Below are positions 43,193 through 57,657 of a DNA stretch of 64,000 nt, piece after piece. The position numbers and the translations under genes were made by a program. Position 1 is the stretch's first letter, and each line of letters begins with the position of its first letter. The stretch is from Nitrosovibrio sp. Nv6 (GTDB taxonomy: Bacteria; Pseudomonadota; Gammaproteobacteria; Burkholderiales; Nitrosomonadaceae). The stretch is from NCBI RefSeq assembly GCF_900110495.1, contig NZ_FODX01000003.1:1-64000 (forward strand), given 5' to 3'. The notes beneath the pieces were generated by a model, which did no database searches, was not told where the DNA came from, and saw nothing but the letters and a program-made list of their open reading frames with translations.

Positions 43193-43527
43193 ATAAGAAG
43201 TCTCTGAATGAATGTTCTGTGGAGCGATCAATTAAAAATCGAGTTGCCAGTGGCGCTGACAACTGAGCCGGAAATTGGCAAAATTGATGGTCAAAAAGGA
43301 GTCGGGGGGGTCGGCAAAGATCGCGGCCCCGTCCATGACGCCAGAGAGTGCAACGTAGCGAACGTCCGGTTTTGCTGTAGCTCGCACGGGATGCTGCTGC
43401 GTCCGAGGGGACTTGTTCAGGGGTTCCATAGGTAATGCCCGCGTTTGTCAGGGGTCGGAAAGCGGCACGGCGGCATAAGCCGCCGTGCGCGTGATGGATA
43501 GCTTGTCGTGCAACTCGTTATGTTTAC
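43193..43527. other. Intergenic region between argD and the decarboxylase
   Basis: This 335-bp gap has the argD promoter side on the left and the decarboxylase 3' end on the right. A perfect 10-bp hairpin lies at 43465-43488. The rest shows no gene; a few short frames here are not protein-like. Confidence 0.4.
43465..43488 (-). terminator. GC-rich hairpin downstream of the decarboxylase
   Basis: GCACGGCGGC-ATAA-GCCGCCGTGC is a perfect 10-bp stem with a 4-base loop, about 40 bases past the decarboxylase stop on the minus strand. The following bases (CGCTTTCC) are only slightly T-rich, so termination may need a factor. Confidence 0.55.
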
Positions 43528-45507: not shown

Positions 45508-45653
45508 GAGCGCTGCTTCTTGATAGAAAAATCGCTTTATGCGCTAAAACAACGTTGATTGCAAGTCTCGGAACCGCCGAATAAGTCAATAAACCAGTGG
45601 ATCGTATTGTTTAGCTGAACGCGGGCGAGATTGAAACCGTCTATAGTAAAACA

Positions 45654-54975: not shown

Positions 54976-56319
54976 TTACTCACCTTTCTCTATTACGGAC
55001 GCCTTGCTCCAACCTTTGGCAAAAACCACTTGAATGGTATCGCCAGCATTGATCTCATCGCTTTTTCGGAGCACCGTCCCGTCAACCGAATAGGCAATGC
55101 TGTAACCGCGCTCTAACACCGATTTCGGGTTAAGGTGAGCAAGGTCTGCCTGCCGGCGCTGCAAGCTCATCATGAGCGTTTCCATTCGAACGGCAACAGC
55201 CCGGCGCAAACGGAGGCTGAGCTCGCGTTGGCGTTCGTCCAGACGCGAAATGTCCGGCCCGGCCGCAATCATGCGCTGTTCAAGGTCACGCAAATGCCAC
55301 TTTCTGCTCTCGGAAATCCGCAGCCATGAGTCAGCAAGCCGCTTGCGTAAACGCTGAAGGTGCGCAATCCGGTCATCAATTTGCCTTCCCGGGTGTATCA
55401 GGCGGAATTCGAGCATATCCACATACTGCATGCGGCCTTCAATATCTCGTTGCGTAGCGCGCTGGATGCGGCCCCAAAGAATTTCGCCAAGACGGACCAA
55501 TTCTTCACGATCCGGGCAGACGAGCTGAGACGCACCGGTAGGCGTGGGTGCACGGACGTCAGCCACAAAATCAGCAATGGTGAAATCAGTCTCGTGACCT
55601 ACCCCACTGACGATGGGAACGAGACAAGCAGCGATTGCGCGTGCCACCACCTCCTCATTAAACGCCCACAAATCTTCGATAGAGCCGCCGCCGCGGCATA
55701 GAATCAGAACATCGCATTCAGCGCGGTTTGCAGCGTTTTGAATAGCCGCCGCTATTTTTACAGAAGCGCCCGCGCCTTGCACCGGTGTGGGATAAACGAT
55801 TACGGGCACAGAAGGCATACGCCGCTGCAGGGTGGATAGTACATCGTGCAGTGCAGCGGCGGCTGGAGATGTAACGACACCGATCTGCTTCGGGAATAGC
55901 GGTAGCGGCTTTTTGCGGTCGGAGTCGAACAGCCCTTCGTTTCCGAGTCTGGCCTTGAGTTGCTCGAAAGCTTCGAACAAAGCACCTTGCCCGGCGCGGC
56001 GAATGTGTTCGACACTCAGCTGAAAATCCCCGCGCGCAGGATACAACGTCACCAGTGCGCGCACCTCCACTCGCATGCCGTCCCTGGGCTGCCAGTCGAG
56101 ATACTGATTCTTATCCCTGAACATAACGCAGCGCACCTGGGCATCCGCATCTTTGAGTGAAAAATACCAATGGCCCGAACCGTAGCGTTTGATATTCGAA
56201 ATTTCGCCGGCTACCCATAACAACGGAAAAGCCTGCTCCAGCAAGTCCTTGGCGCTGCGGTTTAATTCGCTCACGCTCAGGACCGGCTGGGCAAACTCCA
56301 TTTCCATAATGAGATTCAT
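54976..56319 (-). CDS. xseA: Exodeoxyribonuclease VII large subunit
   Basis: XseA is the catalytic subunit of exonuclease VII, which degrades single-stranded DNA into short oligonucleotides. The 447-residue protein has an N-terminal OB-fold (SVSELNRSAKDLLEQAFPLLWVAGEISNIKR ... GHWYFSLKDADAQVRCVMF). The catalytic core has GVVTSPAAAALHDVL, ILCRGGGSIEDLWAFNEE and GVGHETDFTIADFVADVRAPTPTGAS, and a long coiled-coil C-terminal part binds XseB. The start is ATG at 56319 (another ATG is 6 codons on). XseB is not in the window. Confidence 0.96.
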   Translation of the reverse strand: MNLIMEMEFAQPVLSVSELNRSAKDLLEQAFPLLWVAGEISNIKRYGSGHWYFSLKDADAQVRCVMFRDKNQYLDWQPRDGMRVEVRALVTLYPARGDFQLSVEHIRRAGQGALFEAFEQLKARLGNEGLFDSDRKKPLPLFPKQIGVVTSPAAAALHDVLSTLQRRMPSVPVIVYPTPVQGAGASVKIAAAIQNAANRAECDVLILCRGGGSIEDLWAFNEEVVARAIAACLVPIVSGVGHETDFTIADFVADVRAPTPTGASQLVCPDREELVRLGEILWGRIQRATQRDIEGRMQYVDMLEFRLIHPGRQIDDRIAHLQRLRKRLADSWLRISESRKWHLRDLEQRMIAAGPDISRLDERQRELSLRLRRAVAVRMETLMMSLQRRQADLAHLNPKSVLERGYSIAYSVDGTVLRKSDEINAGDTIQVVFAKGWSKASVIEKGE

Positions 56320-56500
56320 CTTGACATTCTACAATAATCCACACTTGTCACGAAAAATGCATAATTGCAGCGGGCAAACCCGCATGAACGCTAGGGTTGC
56401 GATCAAGTGTTTGTTTTTTAAAGGTTTTACTCAAGTTCAAAAATTAATCTAATCAGAAAAAGTTGTTATGGCAGGGCGACTTAATGCTTCTATTTGCAAA

Positions 56501-56535
56501 TTACCCACAAACTTATCCACAGCTATTGTGGACAA
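56501..56535. promoter_or_regulatory. Cluster of three DnaA boxes
   Basis: TTATCCACA at 56513-56521 is a perfect DnaA box. TTACCCACA at 56501-56509 (same strand) and TTGTCCACA read on the minus strand at 56527-56535 each differ at one base. Three boxes in 35 bp beside an A/T-rich stretch is unusual outside a replication origin or a DnaA-controlled promoter. It could control xseA or exbB, titrate DnaA, or be a chance cluster. Confidence 0.55.
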
Positions 56536-56595
56536 GAAAAACGATCCTATCCTTGCCGAAATCATGGAGGCAAGCTACATTACGGCTCTGATTTA

Positions 56596-57007
56596 AGGAA
56601 CCTCTGAATGAGTCCTATGGGGACGCGACGGCGGCTTTGCGGGATGGGATGCGCGAAAGGCGACGACGCGAATGGTGCGCCCGCGTATGGTGGAGCAGTG
56701 CCTTCCAGAGGAAGGTGCGACCCCGCAGCGGGATGCAGGCACCACAGACTTGCTCGGGGGCGCCTCCACGCTGTCCGATCCCGCTTTGCGGGAACCTTCG
56801 TGCAACGCTTTGGGGCGGCCCCTTCGCTAGGAGCCTGACAAAGCAGACCGCCCGCAAAGCCGCCGTCCCTTCGGGTTGCGGAAAACCGGGCGTTCACCGC
56901 GTTGCACTCCTCCGCGTCGTAGAATAAGCTACAGCCTTCGTCGTGCGCCTTGCGATCATCCCGATTTACCGCAACGCGCTCCACGGAGGGCTCATTCAGA
57001 GGTTCCT
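56596..57007. repeat. 412-bp structured element with 17-bp terminal inverted repeats
   Basis: The left end AGGAACCTCTGAATGAG (56596-56612) is the exact complement of the right end CTCATTCAGAGGTTCCT (56991-57007). Inside, GACGGCGGCTTTGCGGG (56627-56643) pairs exactly with CCCGCAAAGCCGCCGTC (56851-56867). Shorter hairpins lie at 56701-56715 (CCTTCC/GGAAGG) and 56779-56793 (TCCCGC/GCGGGA). No transposase-like frame and no clear target duplication is seen. It looks like a MITE-type or other small non-autonomous repeated element. Confidence 0.6.
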
Positions 57008-57021
57008 ATAGGGGGTTATTG

Positions 57022-57657
57022 GTGTTCGCTTTGATTCAAGCTGCCGGTTGGCCGATCTGGCCGATCATTTTAGCTTCCGTCGTCGCTGTCGGCATTATTG
57101 GCGAACGCATGTGGGCTTTGCGCCTGAGTATGGTAACACCCAGAGATCTGTTGTCCAAAGTCGTACAAGAATATCGGAAAAGCGGCGTCAGTACCGATAT
57201 GCTGGCGCGCCTGCAGAAACACTCTCCTCTGGGCCAGATTTTTGCCGCAGGGTTGAGGAATGACAAAAGCACGCGTGAAGTCATGAAAGAATCCATTGAG
57301 GAAGCCGGCCGTGCTGTCGCTCACGATCTTGAACGATATCTCACCACGTTAGGAACCATTGCCTCCCTGAGCCCGCTGATGGGTCTGTTTGGGACGCTGG
57401 TTGGCATGATTGAAATCTTTGGCGCGAATTCCCCTACTGGCGGCAGCAATCCGGCACAACTCGCTCACGGTATTTCCGTAGCGCTCTACAACGCGGCATT
57501 CGGCATTCTGGTTGCCATCCCCAGCATCATGTTTTACCGTTACTTCCGTGCTAAAGTGGATGCGCTGGTGATAGAAATGGAATTGCAGGCGTTGAAACTG
57601 GTAGAAATCGTTCATGGCGAGCGCCAGGTGGATTTCCGGCCCGGCAAGGAAGGTTAA
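57022..57657 (+). CDS. Second ExbB/TolQ-type proton channel subunit
   Basis: This is a MotA/TolQ/ExbB family protein (211 residues) with three membrane helices and the signature SLSPLMGLFGTLVGMIEIFGANSPTGG. It is followed by LAHGISVALYNAAFGILVAIPSIMFYRYF. In betaproteobacteria this paralogue forms a pair with an ExbD upstream of lpxK and Trm112. The start is the GTG at 57022 (MFALIQAAGWPIWPI), with GGGGGTT 5-11 bases before it. Its 5' side abuts the 412-bp inverted-repeat element, so its promoter must lie in or beyond that element. Confidence 0.92.
   Translation: MFALIQAAGWPIWPIILASVVAVGIIGERMWALRLSMVTPRDLLSKVVQEYRKSGVSTDMLARLQKHSPLGQIFAAGLRNDKSTREVMKESIEEAGRAVAHDLERYLTTLGTIASLSPLMGLFGTLVGMIEIFGANSPTGGSNPAQLAHGISVALYNAAFGILVAIPSIMFYRYFRAKVDALVIEMELQALKLVEIVHGERQVDFRPGKEG

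Follow-up and report, generated by a model that had tools for sequence, protein, structure and literature searches.

A composite IS5-type MITE in the putative 5′ leader of an exbB-like gene of Nitrosovibrio and its relatives

Overview

The 412-bp inverted-repeat sequence that lies directly in front of an exbB/tolQ-like gene at positions 56,596–57,007 of the stretch of Nitrosovibrio sp. Nv6 DNA analyzed here (64,000 nucleotides; hereafter the window) is, by comparison with its many relatives, a non-coding and non-autonomous mobile repeat of an IS5-type MITE family (family A), in whose copy a second, separate repeat (module B) is lodged. The account that we favor, with a probability of roughly 0.8, is that an A element with B inside it entered the leader of the exbB-like gene in an ancestor, landing 3′ of the promoter and 5′ of the ribosome-binding site, and that it would since have been tolerated there with the native promoter still in use. 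The IS5-type ends, the family-wide YTAR duplications, the co-occurrence of B-less and B-bearing copies, the element-free leaders and the retained promoter motif come from direct comparison; to these we add, by inference, mobilization in trans, the order in which B and A were nested, transcription from the gene's own promoter and a tolerated leader. The open-licence literature that we searched yielded no description of this composite family, and we class the element as a new family of composite MITEs with IS5-type ends.

Structure of the element

The composite, A with B inside, lies on the forward strand and is bounded by perfect 17-bp terminal inverted repeats, the left at 56,596–56,612 (AGGAACCTCTGAATGAG, with the IS5-type end GGAACCTCTGAATGAG) and the right, on the opposite strand, at 56,991–57,007. 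A further perfect 17-bp inverted pair, with its first arm at 56,627–56,643 and its second, on the opposite strand, at 56,851–56,867, makes up the stem that encloses B. Both pairs had been reported in the earlier note, and their coordinates are exact; they exceed every one of 200 dinucleotide shuffles of 56,400–57,200, in which perfect inverted repeats with loops of 20 or more never exceeded 14 (mean of the longest per shuffle, 8.9). Comparison across the family sets the ends of the transposon proper at 56,597–57,006 (410 bp, GGAACC...GGTTCC), leaving the outermost A/T of the 412 bp to the flank. Comparison with B-less copies further divides the element into a left arm of A at 56,596–56,675 (positions 1–80 of the element as query, or q1–80), module B at site 1 of A (56,676–56,818, about 143 bp), and a right arm of A at 56,819–57,007 (q224–412), all on the forward strand.

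The element is GC-rich, as had been remarked earlier, at 64% GC, where the window as a whole has 53% and the 500 bases 5′ of the element have 44%. The accompanying remark that it is without a protein-like frame holds insofar as its longest ORF, the one scanned (134 aa, minus strand), has no match in Pfam; mechanical ORFs are present. Elsewhere in the window, single A-type ends occur at 43,412–43,427 and 45,570–45,585 (GGAACCCCTGAACAAG and GGAACCGCCGAATAAG), without a facing partner in it.

Family A: distribution, ends and B content

The further copies that the earlier note had proposed to look for are abundant. The genome of Nitrosovibrio sp. Nv6 (G000) has 13 matches to the element, namely the window copy and 12 partial ones, and a genus-level search among genomes that are apparently those of Nitrosospira/Nitrosovibrio found matches in at least 22 of 23 genomes, its own included. 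Across a sample of 120 genomes from the family, matches occur in at least 34 and in three of the four genera, a lower bound set by the scoring of up to five candidates per genome. These matches are interrupted at positions 80 and 224 of the query, and in copies such as G000:C6:1332622-1332894 q1–80 is joined to q224–412 via just four bases. The form of A without B is thus about 272 bp long and has the same ends as the composite; an alignment of 11 such copies gave a mean column identity of 85%.

The A-type ends (GGAACCTCTGAATRAG) recur as inverted pairs. We collected 52 distinct A copies from the loci at hand, which are not a census and in which orthologous copies in different species are counted separately. 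Both ends were found in 48 of them, with identical 4-bp flanks in 16 and YTAR on both sides in 22 of the 48; a YTAR target duplication is the pattern of the IS5 group. The window copy itself is flanked by TTAA and TATA and has no clean target duplication, nor does the element-free leader of the relative G021 (in all likelihood Nitrosovibrio sp. Nv4) show the target.

The same 52 copies vary widely in their B content: 18 are without B and 34 carry one to three B units in several arrangements. B is at site 1 only in eight copies, as in the window, at site 2 only (near q297) in six, and at both sites in five. A further 15 have B and are missing the stretch between the two sites, which is what recombination between two B copies would leave. 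In the genomes G029, G032, G035 and G038 of genus-g2, for which few candidates were scored, the matches listed fall in q1–80 and q225–412 and none in B; on this account the B-less form of A is probably the older one.

A candidate mover of family A

A parent-type transposon with the same ends, another of the checks proposed earlier, is indeed present in a relative. The genome G010 has a complete 1159-bp insertion sequence with the ends GGAAGCTCTGAATAAGTC, flanked by CTAG on both sides, and the 321-aa product of its gene matches the whole of the NCBIfam IS5-family transposase model NF033581 (1.5e-95; 319.8 bits against a cut-off of 140). Its terminal 18 bp agree with those of a B-less A copy at 17 of 18 positions and with the left end of the window copy at 16 of 18. 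We infer from the ends alone that A has been moved in trans by an IS5-family transposase, because A and the G010 insertion sequence share nothing else above chance. An origin of A as an internal-deletion derivative of this insertion sequence was considered and rejected: outside the terminal 18 bp, such similarities as exist between the two are short and no better than chance.

Judging from the genomes compared, the supposed mover of A is today mostly missing. Relatives of the IS5 transposase piece found in the Nv6 genome turned up in six of the 23 genomes and not in G011 or G015, both of them A-rich with about 50 element matches each among the matches listed. Three of seven genomes with A copies (G022, G018 and G017) gave no match to PF01609. 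In the Nv6 genome itself the IS5-family gene is truncated and has one A-type end only (GGAAGCGCTGAACAAA plus TTAA). Among 21 PF01609 loci from seven genomes, one (L128) is an apparent IS5-type remnant with an A-like end, and at another (L144) an A-like end adjoins a short transposase fragment. In the list for eight genomes no pairs of terminal inverted repeats at the spacing of a full insertion sequence were evident by eye.

Module B

Module B, a repeat distinct from A, measures about 145–150 bp and has a mean column identity of 75% in an alignment that took 42 of its 68 units. Two sites in A harbor it, as does an unrelated MITE (family C), and it also forms tandem arrays; one such array, in G022 (presumably N. 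tenuis Nv1), consists of three units with a 149-bp period. Family C has the ends CCTAAATCCGG...CCGGATTTAGG and likewise comprises copies with and without B; in the empty copies a perfect 7-bp hairpin has its five-base loop at the site, and B replaces that loop. In local DNA folding this hairpin did better than most shuffles in both sequences tried, with 6 and 2 of 200 shuffles doing as well. For A, a consensus fold of the whole element places site 1 in an apical and site 2 in an internal loop. Local folding favored a loop at site 1 in one of three sequences (9 of 200 shuffles as good; 119 and 124 of 200 in the other two) and gave no signal at site 2 (74 of 200 as good), and on these predictions the loop position of B in family A is weakly supported. 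A consensus fold of the 42 B units comprises 20 pairs, three of which have both bases changed in one or more sequences, and its covariation term is small.

No protein gene was recognized in B, and a distant-mode search of plasmids returned no match. Its core hairpin extends further: nine of the 54 stretches that match it lie outside Nitrosospira/Nitrosovibrio, in Sulfuricella, Thiobacillus, Gallionellaceae, Hydrogenophilaceae and metagenome-assembled genomes (MAGs) named only to class or phylum. We tentatively raise the possibility, to which we give clearly less than even odds, that B is itself a mobile GC-rich hairpin element. It would lodge at unpaired points of palindromic elements (the apical loop of C; the apical and the internal loop of A), amplify in tandem, have its core hairpin in common with other Nitrosomonadales (Sulfuricella, Thiobacillus, Gallionellaceae), and be without a recognized transposase. 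A RAYT-type protein was tried as its mover and rejected, with B nearby in one of the 30 Y1_Tnp loci examined (of 51 matches), that one in the B-rich G011.

Several loci show B-derived sequence in other settings. On contig C18 of the Nv6 genome (L268:214-667), 4.6 tandem units of 99 bp, derived from B and with 99% matches, adjoin a truncated A-type end. In Sulfuricella sp. T08, Gallionellaceae and other MAG records (L161, L165, L167, L187, L190, L199) the core hairpin stands within a different short element. At all of these except L161 it comes after GGCATGAGCAGGGAG or a near variant of it, at apparent gene junctions where it overlaps stop or start codons; one of these junctions we take to be like rsmH–ftsL. 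In a Thiobacillus denitrificans MAG (L181) and a Hydrogenophilaceae MAG (L186) the hairpin is located at the end of a gene, presumably rho, and part of the gene end is repeated on both sides of it.

The exbB leader and its promoter

The exbB/tolQ-like gene (PF01618) occupies 57,022–57,657 on the forward strand and begins with GTG; an RBS-like AGGGGG at 57,010–57,015 on the same strand lies 3′ of the insertion, and the element ends 15 bp before the start codon, just as had been described. The exbB gene was found in 22 of the 23 genomes, and by a reading of the 22 Nitrosospira/Nitrosovibrio leaders by eye the composite is present in two of them, that of the window and that of G002 (putatively N. 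briensis Nsp8), at the same site and in the same orientation. This shared placement is what one would expect of a native, conserved exbB leader structure that arose without any insertion, and the earlier note had named such a leader as the alternative should there be no other copy and the sequence be conserved at this locus in all relatives. The other 20 leaders are without it, and copies with transposon ends stand at other sites throughout the genus, so that we regard this alternative as scarcely credible.

The same note had also held that the element replaces the natural promoter region and may supply a promoter. The former claim is contradicted by the native promoter-like sequence TTGCCG-N17-TACATT, which is intact upstream of the insertion (56,553–56,581, forward strand) and is kept in the leaders of relatives. 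In a comparison of 21 of the 22 leaders, G019 being left out for want of an xseA-start match, TTGC[CT]G-N17-TACATT is retained in all, both element-bearing ones included; the motif also occurs in G019. Because it stands intact upstream, the element lies in the 5′ leader of exbB, whose mRNA it probably lengthens rather than depriving the gene of its promoter. The distance from motif to start codon is 29–42 bases in 11 leaders and 71–73 in five, 106, 107 and 219 in G007, G003 and G010, respectively, where a C-like sequence is present, and 439 and 451 in the two element-bearing leaders.

That the element supplies a promoter to exbB has a precedent in the BrickBuilt MITEs, whose ends are IS5-like and for which promoter activity in lacZ assays in E. 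coli is given in the excerpted text of PMC4596501. Here, by contrast, the native motif is kept and conserved, and a scan for consensus promoters detected nothing promoter-like within the element, which is weak evidence in that the scan also misses the native motif. We consider such a role improbable, more so than any other alternative weighed except a native leader. On the reading we prefer, exbB would still be transcribed from its own promoter and through the element.

As read by eye, the C-like MITE sequence in the leaders of G003, G007 and G010 (L076, L074 and L079, respectively) starts directly after TACATTA, which would mean that the exbB leader has received MITEs of more than one kind. 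In G011 an A-like fragment is visible, again by eye, farther upstream of exbB. The exbB frame of the window extends without a stop upstream into the element, as far as a TTG at 56,950 (56,950–57,657); in the relatives the start codon is at the position of the window's GTG (57,022), and the longer frame is probably fortuitous.

Predicted fold and effect on exbB

The RNA of the element is predicted to fold very stably on both strands, better than 100 of 100 shuffles in each case (z −7.4 and −6.8). Of the earlier suggestion that it may supply RNA structure to exbB, the strong fold is thus borne out as a prediction; between the orthologous copies its preservation is weak at best, and the predicted accessibility of the ribosome-binding site is hardly altered. 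The mean predicted unpaired probability of RBS and start codon is 0.38 with the element, 0.40 with the flanks joined and 0.34 in G021. When the G000 fold is imposed on G002, 129 of 145 pairs are still paired, 16 are broken and four are compensated, a paired count reached by 2.3% and a compensated count reached by 0.44% of 5000 permutations. Conversely, 124 of the 146 pairs of the G002 fold stay paired in G000, with 22 unpaired and three compensated, counts that 42% and 16% of the permutations reach. Taken together these models suggest weak or no selection on the fold, with the G000-fold test leaning the other way and hinting at some constraint.

These data bear on the alternative that the element now serves exbB as a co-opted RNA regulator or attenuator, its leader hairpin controlling translation or read-through. 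The stability of the fold on both strands, the G000-fold permutations and the sequence like that of an unrelated MITE seen by eye in the leaders of G003, G007 and G010 would all fit with it. Set against these are the pairs broken or unpaired between the two copies, the failure of the G002 fold to rise above the permutations on either measure, a divergence of the element about that of its upstream flank, the lack of the element in the closest relative, and the absence of any Rfam covariance-model match in 56,300–57,300 up to E = 1. We judge co-option unlikely, if marginally less so than promoter supply. Our best reading of the models remains that the insertion is tolerated in the leader and attenuates mildly if at all: the roughly 410-nt hairpin would add a long stretch of structure to the leader, and the RBS would stay accessible.

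History of the insertion

The G000 and G002 copies have their site, orientation and an ATGAG variant in both ends in common, and match at 350 of the 411 bases aligned (85%, with 15 gap columns set aside). Since they agree in all these respects, a single insertion most likely lies behind both; B was presumably already inside A when it reached exbB. The orthologous copies have diverged about as much as the upstream flanks of these two genomes (85% versus 84%). The upstream flank of G021, the closest relative, is 96% identical to that of the window genome, and G021 is without the element; under one insertion its absence there would require loss, recombination or lineage sorting. In appearance the G021 leader is closer to those of element-free relatives than to a clean excision.

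Significance and comparison with known systems

The family offers a naturally replicated case of composite bacterial repeat assembly, in which empty, single, double and tandem states can be compared. If the single insertion is true, a hairpin of about 410 nt has persisted in the leader of a transport-energizer gene across the divergence of two species without the promoter being removed. In practical terms, such elements can cause annotation errors and strain-level variation of leaders in ammonia oxidizers. The unusual part is B, which is separate from A, occurs in two unrelated MITEs as well as alone, and has no link to a RAYT.

REPIN/RAYT systems consist of short GC-rich hairpins dispersed in many copies, and B is like them in each of these respects; unlike in those systems, the RAYT-type (Y1_Tnp) loci are not linked to B, apart from the one locus in 30 noted above. 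The insertion sequences IS1397, ISKpn1, IS621 and ISPsy8 insert into REP palindromes, ISPsy8 at the symmetry axis of a predicted hairpin (PMC1525189, in excerpt). Much in the same manner B in family C occupies the apical loop of a 7-bp hairpin, but it differs from the insertion sequences of that excerpt in having neither a recognized protein gene nor a known mover, and its loop position in A is weakly supported.

The BOX elements of Streptococcus pneumoniae and S. suis are modular, with fixed ends and a variable number of middle modules, and in S. suis one and the same boxB is found within two different pairs of ends (PMC3049150, in excerpt). Family A parallels them in its fixed ends and variable middle-module number (zero to three B across the 52 copies). 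It departs from BOX as there described in that the module sits at two sites of A and in stand-alone arrays and in that the ends are IS5-type; the likeness drawn here is one of architecture. BrickBuilt of Porphyromonas gingivalis is a MITE with ends of the IS5-family type and a trapped 23-nt repeat whose number varies between copies (PMC4596501, in excerpt). It shares with the present family the IS5-type MITE nature, the varying number of the trapped repeat and the intergenic location. On the same partial account its end sequences differ from those here, and in place of a 23-nt repeat the trapped unit is here a GC-rich multi-hairpin module of about 145 bp that also occurs in another MITE and alone. 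By analogy, then, the composite would work like BOX and resemble BrickBuilt most.
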